Under the pieces are notes generated by a model, which was not told the DNA's origin, ran no database searches, and saw only the letters and a program-made list of their open reading frames with translations. 49,653 bases of DNA from a virus. The translations under genes and the position numbers were made by a program. Shown one piece after another: positions 9,418-49,653 of the stretch; within the stretch, counting starts at the first letter, position 1, and each line of letters begins with the position of its first letter. The stretch lies in the IMG/VR virus record IMGVR_UViG_3300046790_000019, positions 1 to 49,653 of that record; one strand, 5' to 3'.

Positions 9418-12057
9418 GTGGCCAAACCACTAGGGCAAAAGCCCGTCCTCCGCAACACCCACCCGCTGCTTGATCATCGCCTCGCGATGTCGGCTAATGG
9501 TTACGCGATCAACCCCTGCACGCTGAAGACGCGGACATGCAAGGGGTGGCCGACCATCCCCTACGACGAGGTCAGCCTGCATCGCGACAGCCGCTGGCGA
9601 GACGAGTATTTCGCCGGCACCGCGGTGCGAATCGAGGGCGACCTCTGCGCGTGGGACATGGACGTATCCATCCCGAAGATCGCCAAGCTACTGGTCGCCG
9701 ACCTCGCCAAAACAGTCCCTAAAGGCACGCCTTTTCCCATCCAGCGCACCTCCGGTGGCGTCTCTATGGCGGTGTTCTTCAGGACGCCGAAACCGTTCTC
9801 ACGACGCGCCACGCAACGCTACACGGCGCACCCGGAGAAGCTCGTCGAGCTTGCAGCTGCGCGGGAGCTGCCCGAGACGACCGAGGAAGAGCATCTGGCC
9901 AAGGCGGCGCTGATCCGCGATCTCACCAAGGCGCTGGAGCCGCAGCACGTCGAGTTCTGGGGGCCGGAGCGCAAGGGCCGATACTTTCAGGTCGAGGGGC
10001 CGCACACAGCCGAGGACATCGACGCCGGCGTCAAGCGCCGCGACTACCTCTGCCTGAACGACCGCGCCCCGTGGAACACGCCGCGCTCCGACCTCCCCTT
10101 CATCGTCATGGACCCCGGCGACTACATCGACCGCGCCGAGAAAATACTGGCCAAGCACCTCACCCTGATCCCCGACGCCGAGACCTACTCGGCCGATGTC
10201 GTCTACGATCTCGAGCCGGAAGGCGAATTCATCGCCAAGGACGGCACCGCCATCACCTACGGCGAGCTGCTTGGCACACTGGAGCCGGGCGCGGAGAATG
10301 GCCTCAGAGGGTGCTTCTCATGGGCGGCCTACGCGGCATCGAATTCGCTGGCCAACTGCAACTGCTATGTCACCTCCGGCCGGCACCAGTTGGTGGTGCG
10401 CGATTGGTCGCACAATGGTGTCGAGCACCGCATGAAGGCGGACGAGCCGCCGCCGCCGGTCGAGATCGACGACAACACGCGGGCGATCCTGCAGTCGATG
10501 GTGGACGCCGCCAGCCTCGGTGTCCTCAAGGGCATGGCCGAGGGCGCAGCCGCGCCGAAATCAGATCCGATGGACGACGAGCCTGAGACGCCGCCGCCGT
10601 CGCTCGACGACATCCAGCGCGGCGACGACGCCGAGACGGGCTATGTCAACGCGGTCGCGTGGCTGCTCGTCAACATCGCCTACTACGCCGGCGCATTCGG
10701 CGGGCGCGGCGGCATCGTCGGCATCCACCCGGAAGGTGATTTCCAGACGCCGCACACGATTGCCGCGCTCAGAAGCTACATGCAGGACTACTGCTATGTG
10801 TCGACGGGACCGCGTGGCGGCAAGCAGACGCACAACCCGGTCGATGCGTGGATGCTGCACGCGGCCAGGGTGAAGGTGTCGGCGATCCGCATGAGGCCCG
10901 ATCTGGCGCGGCCGCTCTACCGCGAGGGCGTGATGCTGCACATCAATCGCTACCAGCCGCCGCGCCACCCGAAGAGCGGCGGCACCACGAAGGTGTTCGA
11001 CACCTTCTTCGAACGGCTGGTGCCTGACGCGGTCGAGCGGGCGTGGGTGGTCAACTGGCTGGCTTCGAAGGTGCAGCACCCGGAGTGGCGCATGGTCGCC
11101 GTGGCGATGGTGGCGCGTGACACCGGCACGGGCAGGGGCCTGCTCGGCGACGTGATCACCAAGCTGTTCGGCGAGCGGTTCGTGACGTTGATGCCGTATG
11201 CCAAGATCAGCGGCGGCGAGGGTTCGCGCTTCAATGCCGAGCTTGCCGACAAGGGCATCGTCATCATCAACGAGAGCCGCGACGCCGAGGACACGAAGTT
11301 CAGCCACAAGGCGGCGGCGCGTGAGGCGCTGAAGGTGTTCATCGAACCGAACCACGCGAGCCTGTTCCGCGTCGAGGCGAAGGGCCAGGACGCGGTCTAC
11401 ATGCGCTCGGCGGTGTCGACGCTGATCTTCTCCAACAACCTCGACGCCTTGCCCATATCCGAGAACGACCGCCGCGTCGCAGTGATGCTGAACGGCCGCC
11501 AGATGACGCAGGACGAGGTCGACGCGCTGCTCGCGTGGATGGCGGTGCCGGAGAACATCGGCGCGCTGTGGCGTCGGCTGAAGGCGCACGCCGTGCCGCT
11601 CGACCGCGCCGTCTTTAACGCGCACATGGCACCGCACACCTATGCGCGTGACCTGATGATCGCCGCCGGCAAGACGCCGGTCGACACGGCGCGTGAGGAC
11701 GCGCTGGAAAAACTGGTCGAGGCGGCGGACCTCTACACCGAGGCGCAGATCGTGGCGGTGGCACGGGCGCTCACCAAGCACACCGCGCAGAGCGGCGAGA
11801 TGGATGAGCGCGTGGCGCGTGAAACGCGCTTCAAGGGGTTCCGCATCGGGGTCAATCACTCGACCAACTGGTACGTCCGCTACAGGGGTGAGAAGTGCAA
11901 GGTGTTCGCGCACAACGAGGCTGATCGCATCCGCTATTCGAACGCCGCGCCGAACGTCATCAAGGCGGAACTCGACAGGGCGCAGGGCGTGGTCGAGCAG
12001 CCGTCGAAGCTCCGCAACAAGTTGCTGAAGGGTGTCGAGAAGGGTGGGGAAGGGTGA
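9418..12057 (+). CDS. Primase-polymerase / SF3 helicase
   Basis: 879 aa, GTG start after AGAAGGAAAG. The N-terminal half resembles a phage prim-pol (AEP) domain: AWDMDV about residues 78-83 (acidic metal site), QRTSGG about 113, and a later VEFWGPERKGRYFQVEG block. Residues 540-720 look like the SF3/DUF5906-type ATPase: Walker A-like RDTGTGRGLLG at about 567, Walker B KGIVIINESRD at about 611, and STLIFSNNLDALP with DRR as sensor and arginine finger. The usual Walker A lysine is replaced by Arg (GTGRG), a variant I have seen in related phage helicases. Likely the replication initiator; an iteron-like region lies directly downstream. Confidence 0.88.
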   Translation: MAKPLGQKPVLRNTHPLLDHRLAMSANGYAINPCTLKTRTCKGWPTIPYDEVSLHRDSRWRDEYFAGTAVRIEGDLCAWDMDVSIPKIAKLLVADLAKTVPKGTPFPIQRTSGGVSMAVFFRTPKPFSRRATQRYTAHPEKLVELAAARELPETTEEEHLAKAALIRDLTKALEPQHVEFWGPERKGRYFQVEGPHTAEDIDAGVKRRDYLCLNDRAPWNTPRSDLPFIVMDPGDYIDRAEKILAKHLTLIPDAETYSADVVYDLEPEGEFIAKDGTAITYGELLGTLEPGAENGLRGCFSWAAYAASNSLANCNCYVTSGRHQLVVRDWSHNGVEHRMKADEPPPPVEIDDNTRAILQSMVDAASLGVLKGMAEGAAAPKSDPMDDEPETPPPSLDDIQRGDDAETGYVNAVAWLLVNIAYYAGAFGGRGGIVGIHPEGDFQTPHTIAALRSYMQDYCYVSTGPRGGKQTHNPVDAWMLHAARVKVSAIRMRPDLARPLYREGVMLHINRYQPPRHPKSGGTTKVFDTFFERLVPDAVERAWVVNWLASKVQHPEWRMVAVAMVARDTGTGRGLLGDVITKLFGERFVTLMPYAKISGGEGSRFNAELADKGIVIINESRDAEDTKFSHKAAAREALKVFIEPNHASLFRVEAKGQDAVYMRSAVSTLIFSNNLDALPISENDRRVAVMLNGRQMTQDEVDALLAWMAVPENIGALWRRLKAHAVPLDRAVFNAHMAPHTYARDLMIAAGKTPVDTAREDALEKLVEAADLYTEAQIVAVARALTKHTAQSGEMDERVARETRFKGFRIGVNHSTNWYVRYRGEKCKVFAHNEADRIRYSNAAPNVIKAELDRAQGVVEQPSKLRNKLLKGVEKGGEG

Positions 12058-12061
12058 AAAA

Positions 12062-12262
12062 CTGTCTCCCTGTCTCCCTTTTTGTCTCCCTTTTGCGTTC
12101 GAGGGAGACAAAGCTAAGTGGTTGAAAGCGGGCGGAAATTCGACAATCTGTCTCCCTGTCTCCCTTATGGTGCTGTCAACCCTATGGTTATTTAAAAGAG
12201 AGAGTGAATCTATGTATATTAAATGCGCGCGCGCGGGAGGGAGACAGGGAGACAGGGAGACA
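12062..12262. other. Candidate replication origin (GTCTCCC iterons and AT-rich core)
   Basis: Nine copies of the 7-mer GTCTCCC or its complement: forward at 12064, 12072, 12084, 12150 and 12158; inverted GGGAGAC at 12103, 12239, 12247 and 12255. Several are tandem at exactly 8-bp spacing. The pairs at 12150-12164 and 12239-12261 can form a stem of about 17 bp around a central stretch that includes an AT-rich segment (about 12186-12223) and a GC alternation. Direct repeats, dyad and AT-rich core beside the primase-helicase gene are typical of an origin; function is inferred. Confidence 0.5.
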
Positions 12263-12270
12263 CTTTTGAT

Positions 12271-12294
12271 CGGGCCGTGGCCGCCCGGTTTTTT
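12271..12294 (+). terminator. Rho-independent terminator of the primase unit
   Basis: CGGGC (12271-12275) pairs with GCCCG (12283-12287) around a 7-nt loop, followed by G and six T residues. It lies about 215 nt after the primase-helicase stop, so the iteron region is transcribed. Confidence 0.7.
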
Positions 12295-12306: not shown

Positions 12307-12339
12307 AGTCTGAAAACCTGAGTCTGAAAGCTTGAAAAC
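12307..12339. repeat. AGYCTGAAAA repeats, copy block 1
   Basis: AGTCTGAAAA (12307-12316), AGTCTGAAAG (12321-12330) and a diverged GCTTGAAAAC from 12330. The first two are 14 bp apart. The same repeat family recurs at 14111-14149. The rest of the gap to 12431 holds a GC-rich direct repeat, CGCCGGCGAG, twice in tandem (about 12378-12397), and no gene. Confidence 0.6.
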
Positions 12340-12431
12340 ATTTTTCCTTGCCACGCCCTGGCGCGCACGCCAGCCGGCCCCGCCGGCGAGCGCCGGCGAG
12401 GCGGGCAGATCGGGTCTGAAATCCTGTCAGG

Positions 12432-12713
12432 TCAGAAGTCGAAGCCGGCGGCCTTGGCGATGGCCCATGCGTCGTTCCACAGCGCGGTGTCGGCGTCGCT
12501 CTGGAGGTCAGGCTCGCGGCCAAGGTACTCGGTCATGGCGGCGTGCATGACCATGTTGGCGTCGCAGTAGTCGTGGCTGTGGCAGATCAGCGGGTTGTTC
12601 TCGACCTTGTTGAGGTAGTTCATGGTGCGGAACTCGGCGGTGCCGATCTCGTCCTGCATCGCTCCGGCGAAGTAGCCGGCGAGCGCGATGGCCTGATGGA
12701 TGGTGTGGGTCAT
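12432..12713 (-). CDS. Conserved phage protein
   Basis: 93 aa. Holds a block, NPLICHSHDYCDANMVMHAA, with two Cys and three His that could bind metal; I have seen similar blocks in uncharacterised alphaproteobacterial phage proteins. Mostly helical. ATG 12713 follows three spaced ACAGGA-like units and overlaps the stop of the HTH gene. Function unknown. Confidence 0.7.
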   Translation of the reverse strand: MTHTIHQAIALAGYFAGAMQDEIGTAEFRTMNYLNKVENNPLICHSHDYCDANMVMHAAMTEYLGREPDLQSDADTALWNDAWAIAKAAGFDF

Positions 12714-14110: not shown

Positions 14111-14149
14111 AGCCTGAAAACTCGAGCCTGAAAAGTCTGAGCCTGAAAA
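14111..14149. repeat. AGCCTGAAAA iterons, copy block 2
   Basis: Three exact copies of AGCCTGAAAA at 14111-14120, 14125-14134 and 14140-14149 (14 and 15 bp apart), directly upstream of the promoter at 14103. Related to the repeats at 12307-12330, so the 12.4-14.0 kb gene block is bracketed by the same iteron. Confidence 0.7.
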
Positions 14150-14218
14150 CATCGGCCCTGCCCGTGGTCGAGCGGCGGCCGGCCGGCGGCGATCCTGCCG
14201 GCGCAGCGCAAGGCATTT

Positions 14219-14290
14219 GTTCCTAGGAATGCGATCCTATAGGACAGGGTTCCTAGGAACACTGTCCTATGGGATAAAATTCCTATCGAC
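14219..14290. repeat. Phased TCCTA palindrome array
   Basis: TCCTA recurs at 14221, 14235, 14251, 14265 and 14281: intervals of 14, 16, 14 and 16 bp. Most are halves of palindromes: GTTCCTAGGAAT (14219-14230), ATCCTATAGGAC, GTTCCTAGGAAC (14249-14260, a perfect palindrome and full CTAG operator), GTCCTATGGGAT. The regular alternation suggests cooperative binding by one dimeric protein. No gene lies between 14104 and 14364. Confidence 0.65.
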
Positions 14291-15585: not shown

Positions 15586-16016
15586 GCGCGTATCGATATC
15601 GGCCAATGATCGCACACCAATATTTAACCAAATGGTAAAATATCCCACCGCGGAAAGTATACTTCAAACATCTTGACGTATACTTGTGTGCACGTCCAGG
15701 TTGTCTATACTGTATTGTGCCATCCCGGCACAGCTGCGCGGCCAGGGCTAGGACTATCGTCCTACTTGACTATACTTGCGCTATACTTGCGCTATACTTG
15801 TCATTATACCAAATGGTAAAGCGTTTATACTGCAACTATACTTCGATACAACCTCGGCGAGCCAGGCTATACTGTCGGGTTGTATAGGATTAAAATCCTA
15901 AATCCGCCCCCCGGCCCCCGTCGCTACAACCTCAGGTTGTACGACGGTGGGTCGATTAGGAAATTTCGCTGAAATTACATCGGGTTAGCAGGAACTGTCC
16001 CATTCTGGCACATCTG
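15586..16016. promoter_or_regulatory. Divergent regulatory region with TATACT array and palindromes
   Basis: No convincing gene. TATAC elements start at 15658, 15679, 15716, 15771, 15782, 15793, 15805, 15826, 15837 and 15868; several are 11 bp apart, on one DNA face, and most continue as TATACT, close to a -10 hexamer. ACCAAATGGTAAA occurs at 15627-15639 and 15808-15820. Palindromes: TAGGAC/GTCCTA (15749-15764), CTATAC/GTATAG (15866-15887), TAGGATT/AATCCTA (15885-15900) and TACAACCT/AGGTTGTA (15925-15941). A C-rich run (15904-15920) is G-rich on the other strand. It separates leftward early genes from the rightward structural operon. Confidence 0.6.
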
Positions 16017-24993: not shown

Positions 24994-27432
24994 ATGGCAC
25001 TCCCGCCGGTTGTCGGACCCCCACCGGGTCCATCGCTGATCGAGACGTTCGGCGCGGCAATCGGATCACTCCCACCCTCGCCGAAGCTGACACCGGGCGG
25101 CGAACTCGCCGGCCACGGCGACGAGTTCACGCAGACCACCCCCGCCGGCGAAGACACCATGCCCCGCGACAAGCCGGAGCCTGACGAGCGCCGCAAGCGT
25201 CTGGTCACCGCGCTCAGCGACATGGTCAAGAAGGCCAAGTCACACTGGGAACCGACCTTCAGGAAAATGGAGCGGAACCAGAAGTTCGCCGCCGGCCAGC
25301 AGTGGCCGGAGGAGCCGAAGAAGGACGCCTTCAACGACACCTACGACGACGATCTCTACGTCGCCAACATCACCCTCCAGCACATTCAGAAGCGCGTCGC
25401 CGCGCTCTACGCCAAAAACCCCCGCGCCATCGCGAAGAAACGCGCACGTCTGCTTGCGACTGTCTGGGACGGCAGCCTGGAATCGCTCGCGCAGGCGGAA
25501 GCAACCATCAGCGCCGCGCAAGCCGCGCTGATGGGCATGCCAGCCGGCGTCCCGGCAGGCATGCCTGGAATGCCACAGGGAGGCCCACCCGGCGCGCCGG
25601 CCATGCCGCCCGGCCCCGGAGGCCCTCCCGGTGCTCCACCGCCCGCTGGCGGCCCCGCAGGGCAGCCTATGATGCCCGCGCCGCCGCCGCCGCCGCCATC
25701 CCCGGAGGAGTTCGCCAACGCGCAGGCCGTCATGGCCGACGCGCAGGCCGTCAAGCAGCAGATCACGCAGCTCAACAAGATCGGCAAGACACTCGAGATT
25801 TTGTACGACTACGAGATCAGCGAGCAGCAGCAGAACTTCAAGTCGATGATGAAGATGACGGTGCGTCGCGCCTCGACCGCAGGCGTCGGCTGGACCCGTC
25901 TCGGCTTCCAGCGGATCATGGGGCCGTCGCCAGATCGCGACAGCCGCATCGCCGACATGCAGCAGCAGCTCGACCTGATTGAGCGCGTGTCCGCCGACAT
26001 CGCCGACGACGAAGTCGATGTCGACAGCGCCTCGGCCGAGCAGATGCGGCTCACCATGCAGGCGGTCGCCGAGGAAGGCGATGTCGTGCTGCGCGAGGGG
26101 CTGCAGTTCTCATGGCCGCGCTCGACCTCCATCATCCCCGACCCGCGCTGCATCCAGCTCCGCGACTTCCTCGGTTGTGATTGGGCGGCCGAGGAGTACA
26201 TACTCTCGGTCAACGAGATCAAGGAGACCTACAACGTCGATGTCGGCTCCAGCCACACCACCTACAGCCGCACTGACACCGGAACGGATTATGAGCGTGC
26301 CAGGGTGGCTTGGCAGGCGAACTCCAGTAACACCGATGACGATGGTAATGTCGATGAAGGCGATTCCGACAACTGTCTGGTGTGGGAGCTGTTCAACAAG
26401 CGTGACGGATTGGTCTACGTCATCTGCGACGGGTATCCTGATTTCCTGAAGGAGCCTGCCGCGCCGGATGTCTACACCGACCGCTTCTGGCCGTGGTTTC
26501 TCACCGCCTTCAACGAGACTGACGGCAAGGTCTATCCGCCGTCCGATGTGGATCTGATCCGGCCGATGCAGCGCGAGCTTAACCGCTCGCGTCAGGGCCT
26601 GCGCGAGCATCGCTTCGCCAACCGCCCGAAGATCGCCTACGCCGAGGGAACGCTGTCGGAAGAGGACATCGACGCCCTCAAGTCACACCCGGTCAACGCG
26701 CTGATCGCGATAGCCGGCCTGCAGCCGGGGCAGGACGTGAACCAGCTCCTGCAGGCCATCAAGGGCGCGCCGGTCGATCCCAACCTCTACGAGGTCAACC
26801 CGATCTTCGAAGACCTGTTGCGCTCGGTCGGGCAGCAGGAGGCCGATCTCGGCGGCACCTCTGGCGCGACCGCCACCGAATCCAACATCGCGGCGTCGTC
26901 CAAGTCGTCCGCGCTGTCGTCATCCATCGACGACATCGACGACACGCTGAGCGCGATGGCGCGGGCCGGCGGCCAGATACTGCTGCTCAACATGCGCCCG
27001 GAGACGGTCAAGGAGATCGTCGGCCCCGGCGCGATGTGGCCGGAGCTGACCCGCGCCCAAGTGTCGAAGGACATCTACCTTGAGATCGAGGCTGGCTCTT
27101 CCGGCCGCCCGAACCAAGCGCAGGAGCTGCAGAATTTCGAGCGCCTCGCGCCGATCCTGATGCAGCTCCCCGGCGTCAAGCCGCAGTTCCTCGCCAAGCA
27201 GGCGATCAAGCGTCTCGACGACAAGATCGACACCGACGAGGCGGTCGCCGATGGGCTGCCCTCGGTCATCTCCATGAATGGCAACAAGGCGATGCAGCCG
27301 GGTGCCACCGGAGGAAACGATCCGACCGCGCAGGGGCCGAGGGGCGCAGGGAACAGCCCTGCCGCCCCGGCACCCAACCCAAGCGCGCCGACACCACCAC
27401 CGAAGCCATCTGCCGGTCCACTGCCGAACTAG
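24994..27432 (+). CDS. Portal protein
   Basis: 812 aa. Position after TerL and sequence (HWEPTFRKMERNQKFAAGQQWPE, DRFWPWFLTAFNETDGKVYPPSDVDLIRPMQRELNRSRQ) fit a large podovirus portal. About residues 180-240 are a Gly/Pro/Met/Ala-rich collagen-like insertion ending in six prolines, probably a flexible loop. The C-terminal 40 residues are also Pro-rich. An internal Met at residue 56 (MPRDKPEP) is a possible alternative start. Confidence 0.88.
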   Translation: MALPPVVGPPPGPSLIETFGAAIGSLPPSPKLTPGGELAGHGDEFTQTTPAGEDTMPRDKPEPDERRKRLVTALSDMVKKAKSHWEPTFRKMERNQKFAAGQQWPEEPKKDAFNDTYDDDLYVANITLQHIQKRVAALYAKNPRAIAKKRARLLATVWDGSLESLAQAEATISAAQAALMGMPAGVPAGMPGMPQGGPPGAPAMPPGPGGPPGAPPPAGGPAGQPMMPAPPPPPPSPEEFANAQAVMADAQAVKQQITQLNKIGKTLEILYDYEISEQQQNFKSMMKMTVRRASTAGVGWTRLGFQRIMGPSPDRDSRIADMQQQLDLIERVSADIADDEVDVDSASAEQMRLTMQAVAEEGDVVLREGLQFSWPRSTSIIPDPRCIQLRDFLGCDWAAEEYILSVNEIKETYNVDVGSSHTTYSRTDTGTDYERARVAWQANSSNTDDDGNVDEGDSDNCLVWELFNKRDGLVYVICDGYPDFLKEPAAPDVYTDRFWPWFLTAFNETDGKVYPPSDVDLIRPMQRELNRSRQGLREHRFANRPKIAYAEGTLSEEDIDALKSHPVNALIAIAGLQPGQDVNQLLQAIKGAPVDPNLYEVNPIFEDLLRSVGQQEADLGGTSGATATESNIAASSKSSALSSSIDDIDDTLSAMARAGGQILLLNMRPETVKEIVGPGAMWPELTRAQVSKDIYLEIEAGSSGRPNQAQELQNFERLAPILMQLPGVKPQFLAKQAIKRLDDKIDTDEAVADGLPSVISMNGNKAMQPGATGGNDPTAQGPRGAGNSPAAPAPNPSAPTPPPKPSAGPLPN

Positions 27433-27444
27433 GGAAACACTGCC

Positions 27445-28506
27445 ATGACGCCTGCCGACGACATCAGCACTGCCACGACCGAAGCCGCGTCGACACCCAC
27501 CGAGGGTACGTCCGCGACGCCGTCGTCAACCCCATCCCCTGCGTCCGAGCCGACGCCGGGTAGTACTTCGGAAGACAGCTCCAAGCAGAGCATGCTTGAC
27601 GCCGTTCTCAAGGTGGTCCCGGCCACGAACGAGACCGACGTGCTTGCCGAGCAGACGGGCGATTCCGAGACGACTGATGAAGATCAGCCAGCAGACGGGC
27701 AGGCGGAAGCCGACCCCGACGACGACAAGGAACCTCCTGCGGAAGCGGCCTCTCCGGTCATCCGCAAGAAGATTTCCAAGCTCCTGAAGCAACGCCGCGA
27801 ACTGCGTCAGCAAGTAGAGCAGATGGCGACCCTTCGGCGACCCGCCGAAGTAGGCCAGCAGCTCGAAAACTACGCCGTAGCCAACGACCTTAGCGCCGAA
27901 GACATCACCGGCATCCTGCAGATTGCCGCGCACCTTCGTCACGGCGACTATGCGGAGTTCTACAAAGCGGTCGCTCCCTATGTCCGCACCGCCCAAGAGT
28001 ATCTGGGCCACGCCATCCCGAAAGACCTTCGGGAGCGGGTGCAGAAGGGGGAGATGACCGAAGCGACGGCCAAGGAGTTTGCCAGGACGCGCATGGATAT
28101 GAAGCGCGGCGAGATGCAGCGGGAGACGGCCGAGGAGGCCAGCGCCCGCAACAATCTCGTCGCGACGCAGAACCGTGTGGAGACCTCTGTCGCTGCGTTG
28201 GAGAGCCGGATGGCCGCGAGCGATCCCGACTACAAGGCTAAACAGGGCGCTGTTCGAAGGACCGCGCAGGCAATGCTGTTCGAGCGAGGTGGCACAATCG
28301 CCAGCGTCGAGGAGGCCTTGGAGATCACCAAGGCCGCCTACGCCGAGGTGAACGCCACGATCCGCAAGCAACGGCCGAACCCGACGCCCACGTCCAAGAT
28401 ACCGAACGGCAATGGATCAACCCACACGGTGCGCGCCGAACCGAAGACGCTCATGGAAGCGGCTCTTCAAGGATTGGCAAATTCACGAAACGGCGCGCAC
28501 CCCTGA
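27445..28506 (+). CDS. Scaffolding-like protein
   Basis: 353 aa between portal and capsid, the usual place of the scaffold. First 110 residues: Ser/Thr/Pro/Asp/Glu-rich, disordered, acidic; middle: basic coiled coil (KISKLLKQRRELRQQVEQM) and long helices; C-terminus basic (about 310-345). This acidic-helical-basic plan fits a scaffold that binds capsid through its tail. Sequence alone does not prove it. Confidence 0.75.
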   Translation: MTPADDISTATTEAASTPTEGTSATPSSTPSPASEPTPGSTSEDSSKQSMLDAVLKVVPATNETDVLAEQTGDSETTDEDQPADGQAEADPDDDKEPPAEAASPVIRKKISKLLKQRRELRQQVEQMATLRRPAEVGQQLENYAVANDLSAEDITGILQIAAHLRHGDYAEFYKAVAPYVRTAQEYLGHAIPKDLRERVQKGEMTEATAKEFARTRMDMKRGEMQRETAEEASARNNLVATQNRVETSVAALESRMAASDPDYKAKQGAVRRTAQAMLFERGGTIASVEEALEITKAAYAEVNATIRKQRPNPTPTSKIPNGNGSTHTVRAEPKTLMEAALQGLANSRNGAHP

Positions 28507-46682: not shown

Positions 46683-46720
46683 GTTCCTGTGTCCTGTTCC
46701 TGATTCGATGATGATTCGTT

Positions 46721-46903
46721 TCATTGCTTCTTGCGCTCGGCGTCGATGGCCCGCCGCAGGGCGTCGGCGGCGCGCAGCGTCTTGTCGGAGATCAGCCCGC
46801 CGTTGCCGCCGACCAGCTTGCCGCCCATTATCGCGCCGTGCATGTCGAACGACACCGCGTCGGCGAGTGCAAGCGCGGCGTCGAGCAGCTTCTCGGTGCT
46901 CAT
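46721..46903 (-). CDS. Small helical protein
   Basis: 60 aa: MSTEKLLDAALALADAVSFDM, a Gly-rich turn (GGKLVGGNGG), and a basic C-terminal helix (ALRRAIDAERKKQ). ATGA overlap on both sides. Not recognised. Confidence 0.6.
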   Translation of the reverse strand: MSTEKLLDAALALADAVSFDMHGAIMGGKLVGGNGGLISDKTLRAADALRRAIDAERKKQ

Positions 46904-47112
46904 AGCGCGAGGATCAGTTCTTCGGTGCCGTAGACGCCGGGCTGACCGCAGCTCTCGCATGTGTAGTCGCGGGCGTCAGGCTCGACGCCGTGCGCCTCGG
47001 CTCCGCAGGCGAGGCAGAAGCCGGGATCGTCGAGGCTCTTCATGCGTCGCGCCGTGGCGTCGAGCACGCGCTTCTCGGTGATGCTCTTGTGCCAAAATTC
47101 ACGCTCCAGCAT
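46900..47112 (-). CDS. Zinc-ribbon protein
   Basis: 70 aa. CLACG and CESCG, 17 residues apart, make a classic zinc ribbon in the C-terminal half, preceded by a basic helix (ITEKRVLDATARRMKSL). Possible transcription or replication accessory factor. Its leader strongly resembles that of the gene starting at 42966, and a degenerate CTAG operator lies 41 nt upstream. Confidence 0.7.
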   Translation of the reverse strand: MLEREFWHKSITEKRVLDATARRMKSLDDPGFCLACGAEAHGVEPDARDYTCESCGQPGVYGTEELILAL

Positions 47113-47164: not shown

Positions 47165-47640
47165 TAGCGGTCTATTTCCCACAAGACCCGGTCGACGCCG
47201 CCGTTGCCCTTGGCGTCGCGCATCGCCACCAGGCGCGGGTCTTTGGTGTGGTCGGCCCATGAGCCGCGAGCCGGGATGTCCTTGACCCGCCGCCAGCCGG
47301 CGGCGCGCAGGCTGACGCCCAGCTCGCGGCCTTGCGTGTAGGTGATGCAGCGGCGGTAGCCCATTGCCTTGCCACAGCGCCATGCGGCCCCGTAGAGCAT
47401 CGAATTGACGTTCGGGGTGCCATCGGTGCAGCTCCGCGTCACTTCCAGCGTCAGGCCGTCGTCGTAGGCCCGCGCAATCGGGCGGCCCGCCATGACGACG
47501 CCGACCAGCACGTCGCCGGCGTCGACGCCGATGGAGAACTTGTGGCCCCTCGGCGGCTTGTTGTGGCGGTGCAGCGTCTCGACGAAGGCGCAGGCCTGCT
47601 TCAGCGTGATCGGCCGGATGGTCAACTTCACAGACCCCAT
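47164..47640 (-). CDS. XF1762 family protein
   Basis: 158 aa. Unmistakable family pattern: RPITLKQACAFVETLHRHNKPPRGHKFSIGV, VMAGRPIARAYDDGLTLEVTRSCTDGTPNVNSMLYGAAWRCGKAMGYRR and SLRAAGWR. The family looks like a diverged acyltransferase-type fold and is common in phages, but its function is unknown. ATG 47640 overlaps the polymerase 3' end by 13 nt. Confidence 0.85.
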   Translation of the reverse strand: MGSVKLTIRPITLKQACAFVETLHRHNKPPRGHKFSIGVDAGDVLVGVVMAGRPIARAYDDGLTLEVTRSCTDGTPNVNSMLYGAAWRCGKAMGYRRCITYTQGRELGVSLRAAGWRRVKDIPARGSWADHTKDPRLVAMRDAKGNGGVDRVLWEIDR

Positions 47641-49653
47641 GATGTCTTGTTCTTCGAATAGAACCGCCCGATTGTCGTCTCTGCCGCGATGGGCAGACCC
47701 TTCGTCCATGCGAACCCCTTCTCCATCGTTTTCCGCAAGATCGCAGCTGCGCGTTCGGCGTCCTTCTCAGCCGTGTGCGTCAGGATTTCATCGTGCGTAT
47801 GCAGCCGCGTCGGCATCCAGCCGGCGGTGGCGTGCAGCGCCTCCAGCCGCACCAGGGTGCCGCGCAGGATGTCGGCGGCGGCCGCCTGCGTGACGTTCTC
47901 GGCGAACAGCCCGGGCCACAGCTTCATGCGGCCCATGTCGCGGGAAAACATCAGCTCGCGGCGATAGCCCTCGACCTCGCCGGTGTCCTCGTCGACGATC
48001 TCGACCATTTCCCACTTGATGCGGCGGTAGGTCAGGAATCGGCCTGACGGCAACTGGCAGAGCAGCGATCCGCCGAGGTAGTCCTTGAGGTAGACGAAGC
48101 CGATCAGGCCGCACTTGAACATGGTGTCGGGCGCTTCGATGGCCTTGTTGGCCGCGCCCCACAGACCATAGCTGCCGCGCTCGTCGTGGCGGCCCCAGAA
48201 GCGCGCCGCCCACGGGTTGGCGTCGCGCCACCGCTCGACCGCCGCCTTGGCCTCGTCGACCTCCAGATGCATGCCGTAGGACGCCGCCATCGCGAGCAGC
48301 GCGTTGTGGCCGCCGCCGAAGCCGCAGGCGAGGTCGACGACCTTGCCGCGCTGGCGGATTTTGCTGTCGACAGCGTCGAGCGGGATGTGGCTCAGATCGG
48401 CCGCCGTGCGCGTGTAGACATCGTATTTCTCGATCCCGGCGTCGACACGCGCAAACACCTTGAGACGCTTGTCGGCGTCCTTGTCGACGGCCAGCCACGG
48501 CGTCACCCGTGCTTCGATGTTGGCCCAATCGCCCCACACGAAAGCGTGATCGGGTTCGGCGATCAGGCTCGGTCGGATCAGCAGCGACAGCTTGCGGCTG
48601 GTCGGCGTCTCGTCGCCGAGCCGGGCGAACTCGGCCGGCGTGATACCTTCGACCAGAGCGTCGATGAGGTCTATCTCATCGCCGAAACTGTCGCGCATCA
48701 GATTGTGGACCTGGATACCCTTGGCGCTGAAGCGGCCGGTCTGCGGCGCGCCGTTGAAGACGTACTGACCCCGGATCACGCCGTCGACGTGACTGCCCAT
48801 CATGCGGCCGAATTTGGCCGGAGTTTTAGATCCACCGTAGAGCCTGATCTGGAGCACCCGCTGCGCGGCCCAGAGGTGGGATGGGAGCGTCTCCATGCTG
48901 TCGATCCACGCGAGCAGCCTGACGACGCGATTGCGCGTCAGCGACCATTTGCCGGGCTTTGTGACCTCTCCGGTTTCCTCGTCGACCTCCTCATACCGCT
49001 CGACCAGCATGTCGCGGCCCTCGGACGGCAGGACGTGGAACAACCACTCGACGATGCGCTTGACCTGATTGACCGTGGTGACGGCGCGCCCGGTTATCTC
49101 GGACAGCTCATATGCCGCGATCTTCTGGTCGGCGGCGGCCATGTGCATGGCGGCCTCGACCAGTGGCAAGTCTATACAAATGCCACGGTCGTTGATCTGC
49201 TCGGCGGCCCAGTACTCCTGCCACTCGGCGAGCGGCAGTTGCCGGGTGCGCCGGAACAGTCCGCGCATGGCGTCGATGTCGGCCCCGGCGTAGATCAGGA
49301 ACTGCTGCCACTCGGCCGGGTGCGTCTGCGGCGTCGCCACGGCGTCGGGCGCGCAGAACAGCTTGATCAGGAGCTTGCCGAGCGGGTCTTTGTGATACTT
49401 GGAGCCGCTGAACTTGGCCGCGTATTCGAGCGCCGCCGGCAGGCCGCTGGCGGCCGCCTGCACGCGGCTGTCGACGATCATGTGCGGCTCCAGCACCGGG
49501 AAGCCTCTGGTGGCGTGGTTCCAGATGTTGCGGTCGAAGTTGGCGTTGTGGGCGCAGTAGATCGCCGCGCCGTCGCGCACCTTCTCATGGAAGGCGTGGA
49601 AGTGCTTCGGCATGTCAGCCCAGCGCAGCGGGCGAGAGAAGTCGGGGACAGCG
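47628..49653 (-). CDS. Family A DNA polymerase, main part (continues across the window ends)
   Basis: The open frame enters at the right edge and holds the rest of the exonuclease domain (HNANFDRNIW, YAGADIDAMRG) and the Pol I palm: motif A DWANIEARV, motif B VVDLACGFGGGHNALLAMA, and motif C THDEIL. No 5' nuclease domain. With the 60-codon start at 1-180 the enzyme is about 731 aa, the usual length of phage Pol I with proofreading. Together with the primase-helicase it forms a self-contained replisome core. Confidence 0.93.
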   Translation of the reverse strand, partial: AVPDFSRPLRWADMPKHFHAFHEKVRDGAAIYCAHNANFDRNIWNHATRGFPVLEPHMIVDSRVQAAASGLPAALEYAAKFSGSKYHKDPLGKLLIKLFCAPDAVATPQTHPAEWQQFLIYAGADIDAMRGLFRRTRQLPLAEWQEYWAAEQINDRGICIDLPLVEAAMHMAAADQKIAAYELSEITGRAVTTVNQVKRIVEWLFHVLPSEGRDMLVERYEEVDEETGEVTKPGKWSLTRNRVVRLLAWIDSMETLPSHLWAAQRVLQIRLYGGSKTPAKFGRMMGSHVDGVIRGQYVFNGAPQTGRFSAKGIQVHNLMRDSFGDEIDLIDALVEGITPAEFARLGDETPTSRKLSLLIRPSLIAEPDHAFVWGDWANIEARVTPWLAVDKDADKRLKVFARVDAGIEKYDVYTRTAADLSHIPLDAVDSKIRQRGKVVDLACGFGGGHNALLAMAASYGMHLEVDEAKAAVERWRDANPWAARFWGRHDERGSYGLWGAANKAIEAPDTMFKCGLIGFVYLKDYLGGSLLCQLPSGRFLTYRRIKWEMVEIVDEDTGEVEGYRRELMFSRDMGRMKLWPGLFAENVTQAAAADILRGTLVRLEALHATAGWMPTRLHTHDEILTHTAEKDAERAAAILRKTMEKGFAWTKGLPIAAETTIGRFYSKNKTSWGL

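Follow-up and report, generated by a model that had tools for sequence, protein, structure and literature searches.

Genes and Sequence Features at the Locus

The window, i.e., the whole stretch of 49,653 nucleotides analyzed here (IMG/VR virus record IMGVR_UViG_3300046790_000019), is a full tailed phage genome encoding terminase, portal, and tail proteins, a family A DNA polymerase (47628-49613), and DUF2800 and SNF2-related proteins. Its portal relates the phage to Microcystis phage Mae-Yong1326-1 and Rhizobium phage RHph_N65. The following features surround the 3' end of its replicase gene:

9418..12057, + strand: 879-aa replicase with N-terminal prim-pol, DUF5906/SF3-type helicase, and C-terminal putative DNA-binding domain (domain and structure matches)
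11827..11886, + strand: codons aligned with the putative iteron-matched wing of E. coli-type relatives (about residues 804-823, within TRFKGFRIGVNHSTNWYVRYR; assigned by alignment)
12064..12090, + strand: iterons 1-3, GTCTCCC, starting at 12064, 12072, and 12084 (exact matches)
12103..12109, - strand: iteron 4, inverted (exact match)
12150..12164, + strand: iterons 5-6, GTCTCCC, starting at 12150 and 12158 (exact matches)
12187..12224, no strand: AT-rich core, putative melting site, the 38 nt richest in A+T in the window (the run 12186-12223 has 76% A+T)
12239..12261, - strand: iterons 7-9, inverted, starting at 12239, 12247, and 12255 (exact matches)
12268..12294, + strand: hairpin with a T6 tract behind it, which may terminate the replicase transcript past the iterons (stem-loop prediction, weak, z = -0.3)
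12432..12713, - strand: convergent small gene bounding the intergenic region (ORF)

The replicase matches Pfam DUF5906 (1.2e-9) and DNA primase in PHROG (7e-23), and the nearest solved structure to its helicase domain is the NrS-1 primase-polymerase helicase (6k9c, 1.4e-6). By the DUF5906 and NrS-1 matches the protein carries an SF3/D5-type ATPase, and the catalytic DxD and H of AEP enzymes are present as residues D80, D82, and H196, which are invariant in the alignment. At about residues 570-574 (window 11125-11139) its Walker A motif is GTGRG, an arginine replacing the usual lysine. The same holds for the relatives at loci L191, L192, and L328; the relative G006 has GSGRG and the NrS-1 relative GTGKG.

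The Iteron Array

Six nucleotides after the stop codon of the replicase begins an array of nine exact GTCTCCC heptamers, which occupy 198 nt (12064-12261) in the order +++-++--- and with start-to-start spacings of 8, 12, 19, 47, 8, 81, 8, and 8. A first-pass annotation, made from the DNA letters, had described nine such 7-mers in direct and inverted order around an AT-rich core directly after a prim-pol/SF3 helicase gene, and all of this is borne out. The best 38-nt and 50-nt AT windows of the entire window, which has 65% G+C, both lie here between the clusters. The two inverted clusters that it described are recognizable in arms of 33 nt each (12058-12090 and 12235-12267) that are 85% complementary, although one inverted copy (12103) stands in the left half as well, where it forms part of an 11-bp perfect inverted repeat with 12081-12091. 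The 8-bp spacing does occur, but in just four of the eight intervals and not predominantly. Cumulative GC skew, which it had named as an origin marker, lends no support: the curve follows the coding strand and peaks near 13-15 kb, with a sign opposite to that of a bacterial-type origin.

It is the clustering of the word, not its number, that is exceptional. GTCTCCC occurs 10 times in the window, unremarkable against a shuffle mean of 7.9, and the tenth copy, at 28121, is the sole one outside the array. When all heptamers were scored for clusters, counting both strands and allowing a span of up to 300 nt, the nine GTCTCCC copies formed the densest cluster in the window, whereas 60 dinucleotide shuffles of the window reached 4-5. 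DnaA boxes (TTWTNCACA) are found nowhere in the window, so that the array does not conform to the theta iteron-plasmid type.

The two genes flanking the iteron region converge on it with their 3' ends, which means that it is no operator preceding a coding gene. A consensus scanner lists no terminator at 12268-12294. The DNA inside the convergent small gene resembles hypothetical genes of PaMx74 and QDWS359. Further to the right, intergenic gaps contain copies of a diverged repeat of 14 nt, AGTCTGAAAACCTG (12307-12334, 12413-12426, and about 14113-14150). The 62 nt of another intergenic stretch, 14224-14285, form an almost perfect palindrome, TAGGAAT-gcg-ATCCTATAGGACAG-g-GTTCCTAGGAAC-a-CTGTCCTATGGGAT-aaa-ATTCCTA, which recalls a telomere-resolution or recombinase site; no such enzyme was recognized among the proteins scanned.

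The Same Word in Other Phages

The first-pass annotation had not recognized the repeat unit, and a literature search for the literal word returned nothing relevant. GTCTCCC is not unique to this phage, however, as it recurs beside other primases. Clusters on both strands, found by DNA pattern alone, exist in unrelated phages and prophages, and at six loci (L010, L017, L026, L142, L169, and L188) the cluster is located at the 3' end of a gene for a primase or a VapE-type helicase. A homology search excluding self-hits detected a replicase homolog within 1 kb of 8 of 18 dense both-strand loci (one more dense locus is added by PHROG) vs. 3 of 147 sparse loci, a contrast that is indicative and not exact because the query set held some of these proteins and two locus pairs are near-duplicates. 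A search for a C-terminal domain common to all phages with GTCTCCC found none, so the word was probably reached by different proteins. In one of these loci (L010, 3518-3830) the cluster is interleaved with several TTATCCACA-like DnaA boxes, unlike in the window. Many GTCTCCC pairs in viral contigs represent coding or low-complexity repeats and have nothing to do with origins.

The Same Place With Other Words

Relatives of the phage were reached by an alignment query and by a portal-based search of viral contigs, from which the best 80 of 254 portal relatives were kept; with P0001 alone as query against the viral contigs no relative was found. Heptamers clustered on both strands were sought in unbiased genome-wide scans. 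The top cluster lies directly 3' of the replicase gene in RHph_N65 (CGGAGAT, 12 copies), Nostoc phage JY18 (GGACCCG, 7 copies), and E. coli phage 689R2 (AGGTGAC, 9 copies), and in Mae-Yong1326-1 five copies of CTGGCGC 3' of the replicase tie for the top cluster. Milano and P106B, which have related replicases, showed no comparable cluster 3' of the gene in this heptamer scan.

Among the best 80 of the 254 portal relatives, the nearest to the window is G006, whose replicase is 43% identical. The first-pass annotation had held that absence of the repeats from close relatives would speak against an origin. GTCTCCC is indeed absent from G006, yet an equivalent set stands in its place: eight copies of TGTCCTTA/TAAGGACA right after the replicase stop codon, in inverted clusters around an AT-rich core. 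In the sister phages G002, G005, and G015 clusters of differing words lie 7-12 nt 3' of the replicase, in G014 the cluster is about 300 nt and in G001 about 730 nt 3' of it, the last consisting again of GGGAGAC, and a GGGAGAC cluster about 730 nt away is also present in G003 (the contig of locus L189). The distance in G001 and G003, like the lack of a comparable cluster in Milano and P106B, weighs against the origin reading. Clusters in repetitive or terminal sequence outrank the replicase-adjacent ones in G002 and G015. Some of the sister replicases have another type of helicase, and thus exchange of the enzyme leaves the place of the cluster unchanged. Separately from these sets, G001 has a second cluster, of GGAGACA, near its other contig end (L331 6720-7018, i.e., G001 46720-47018), and G015 carries dense CCCCTCAG clusters on both strands at both contig ends (L341 21-325 and L343 8931-9172, with 14 and 10 copies).

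In Bordetella phage BPP-1 (L193), TTTGCCTCG doublets stand in inverted order around an AT-rich core at 26608-26709. They occupy the next gap, with one small gene between them and the end of the primase gene, and are a candidate origin that differs from the stem-loop proposed at 27,177 in BIP-1 (PMC4234260).

The distribution of these sets bears on two other explanations. According to one, the origin lies elsewhere in the window, for example at the TATACTT cluster at 15655-15843, while the GTCTCCC copies serve in regulation or partition. This second heptamer cluster does have six copies and an AT-richer setting, but it lies between divergent genes and mostly on one strand, like a promoter or operator, no partition genes were recognized among the proteins scanned (part of the ORFs), and the relatives keep the place 3' of the replicase; we consider an origin elsewhere highly unlikely. 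As an observation by itself, the six AAGTATA/TATACTT heptamers in this AT-richer divergent gap (15655-15890) might constitute an operator/promoter array, and they are the only rival cluster. According to the other explanation, the repeats work at the RNA level, as a 3' element of the replicase transcript that affects stability, termination, or autoregulation, as their situation between the stop codon and a possible terminator hairpin would allow. The relatives, however, retain both orientations and the duplex symmetry, and in pRN1 the terminator is dispensable and the origin element alone is needed (PMC4234260), so that we give hardly any credence to a role in the transcript.

Co-Switching of Iterons and a Predicted Replicase Hairpin in Relatives

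Contigs of E. coli-type prophages encode relatives of the replicase that are about 26% identical to that of the window. In each prophage the ~275 nt that follow the DUF5906 gene contain about ten iterons, whose positions are fixed and which likewise form inverted clusters with an AT-rich core between them. Four words occur, GGTGAC, GGTGGC, GGTAAC, and GGTGTC, and the word is switched in nearly all copies at once between loci of near-identical gene backgrounds (L192, L196-L210, and L225-L231). For 19 distinct sequences, including seven added E. coli chromosomes, we determined which alignment columns sort perfectly by word. Among the iterons 29 of 35 variable columns do so (83%), and among hairpin codons 711-726 it is 15 of 29 variable columns (52%). 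The proportion is 7 of 1012 columns (0.7%) in codons 1-660, 1 of 47 columns in codons 661-710, 0 of 24 variable columns from codon 727 to the stop, and 21 of 133 columns in the spacers. On a tree of the remaining gene the word is polyphyletic, changing at least 10 times, no fewer than random labels do.

Residues 711-726 are predicted with low confidence to form a β-hairpin after a helix. The simplest reading of the sorting is that this segment of the E. coli-type replicase would read the iterons. Hitchhiking was considered as a cause of the match and judged unlikely: the codons between hairpin and iterons do not sort by type, and physical linkage alone would have dragged these intervening codons along. 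At the aligned segment of the window replicase (residues 804-823), which differs from that of G006, the model likewise shows a helix and then a β-hairpin, at low confidence (AlphaFold pLDDT 41); for both C-terminal domains, those of the E. coli-type and the window protein, pLDDT values are 39 and 41, too low for a fold search. As candidate matches of word and segment, GTCTCCC may pair with RIGVNHSTNWYVRYR and TGTCCTTA with RAFEKYDGHNWLVRFG.

The co-switching is also informative about two explanations that share the location of the element. One of them supposes that the prim-pol/SF3 protein recognizes a hairpin extruded from the inverted clusters, not duplex iterons, as in pRN1, where a stem-loop of ~100 nt, located 54 bp beyond the 3' end of the prim-pol/SF3 gene, is required; the same has been proposed for BIP-1 (PMC4234260). 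A single strand of the iteron region is indeed predicted to fold with z = -7.6, but any inverted set of iterons folds. Moreover, the E. coli-type words are faithful in 10 places and change with a protein segment, which argues for sequence reading, and BPP-1, the sister of BIP-1, has TTTGCCTCG iterons in inverted pairs. The pRN1 type, i.e., a large stem-loop and no iterons, is not what the window presents, as stem-loop potential is accompanied by iterons, and we regard recognition of an extruded hairpin as quite unlikely.

The other explanation takes the iterons as the initiation or priming sequence of the prim-pol and, being compatible with an origin, is just partly a rival. The polymerase of NrS-1, the nearest solved structure to the helicase domain, initiates at a specific 8-nt sequence (PMC8718748, PMC7102993), and CCPol-MP of SCCmec primes on iterons (PMC7581432). 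However, the NrS-1 genome has only two copies of its sequence (PMC7102993), and the co-switching falls in the C-terminal hairpin and not in the prim-pol or its helix-bundle domain. Such a priming role for the iterons seems most unlikely.

Proposed Mechanism and Significance

The origin reading made in the first pass is supported by the place of the array, by the domains of the replicase, and by the same anatomy with other words in relatives. The iteron region is a real and probably functional replication origin of a known design, and it is very likely, judging from these comparisons, that 12058-12268 acts in cis as the origin by a replicase-iteron mechanism. For the window replicase we infer binding, ring loading, melting, and priming in the following way. 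The 879-aa protein would bind the GTCTCCC iterons through its winged-helix-like C-terminal domain, assemble, probably as a pair of helicase rings, on both inverted clusters, and melt the AT-rich core between them, and its prim-pol domain would prime synthesis for the family A polymerase. Reading of the iterons by the C-terminus in this phage is indicated indirectly, by the co-switching in ~26%-identical relatives and the low-confidence fold.

The element belongs to a known origin design, and what is unexpected is its occurrence across tailed phages, though the design was described as unique to PICIs. Also unexpected is the apparent switching of words together with a protein hairpin, as a cassette, in one family. 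On balance, we lean toward the view that many tailed phages, with replicases of the prim-pol+SF3, prim-pol+RecA-type, or VapE kinds, may have a PICI-type origin directly 3' of the replicase gene, that word and C-terminal hairpin could be an exchangeable specificity cassette, switching repeatedly between near-identical phages, and that GTCTCCC would be one word of many. As the design is found in full phages, some with other kinds of replicase, it may be a general origin of prim-pol phages and may offer a way of finding origins from sequence alone. The E. coli-type family is a ready system for studying how initiators recognize origins and why origin specificity diversifies. The switching may have been driven by incompatibility of related prophages or by rivals that target origins, such as Odn.

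Comparison With Known Systems

In PICI origins, two iteron sets flank an AT-rich region immediately 3' of rep and are needed for plasmid replication (PMC6092414). The iteron region resembles the origins of SaPIbov1 and EcCICFT073 (PMC6092414): the gene for an initiator-helicase is followed at once by short iterons in two sets, with an AT-rich stretch between them. According to the SaPI work cited in PMC7581432 (Ubeda et al.), the C-terminal domain of SaPI Rep recognizes repeats directly downstream of its own gene, and the protein assembles, with two hexamers proposed, and opens the DNA. In contrast to PICIs and SaPIs, the window belongs to a tailed phage that itself encodes terminase, portal, and DNA polymerase A, its prim-pol is fused to a DUF5906 helicase, and the word is GTCTCCC. 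Since it encodes terminase, portal, and tail proteins and is not a satellite, its origin would work like that of a PICI without the phage being one.

Like the window replicase, the P4 alpha protein unites primase, SF3 helicase, and an origin-binding C-terminus in one initiator that uses short iterons. Its primase, however, is of the Toprim type, and ori and crr are arranged differently. A comparison with P4 is also made in the pRN1 study, which locates the origin 3' of the prim-pol/SF3 gene (PMC4234260). ORF904 of pRN1 and the proposed BIP-1 origin share with the window the combination of prim-pol, SF3, and C-terminal winged helix, a strong stem-loop potential, and a cis element lying no more than about 166 nt beyond the 3' end of the gene, whereas pRN1 is without iterons (PMC4234260).

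Cch2 of SCCmec binds downstream repeats by its C-terminal domain, and its site consists, as in the window, of direct repeats just 3' of a D5/SF3-type helicase gene; it differs in having three 5-nt AAGTG repeats and a separate primase, and inverted clusters flanking a core are not described for it (PMC7581432). Finally, although the Vibrio cholerae PLE satellites have ~30-bp iterons and an N-terminal RepA_N domain in an initiator of another family, in their RepA/origin system the DNA-binding domain and the iterons are exchanged together between elements (PMC8263062), as seems to be the case in the E. coli-type prophages.
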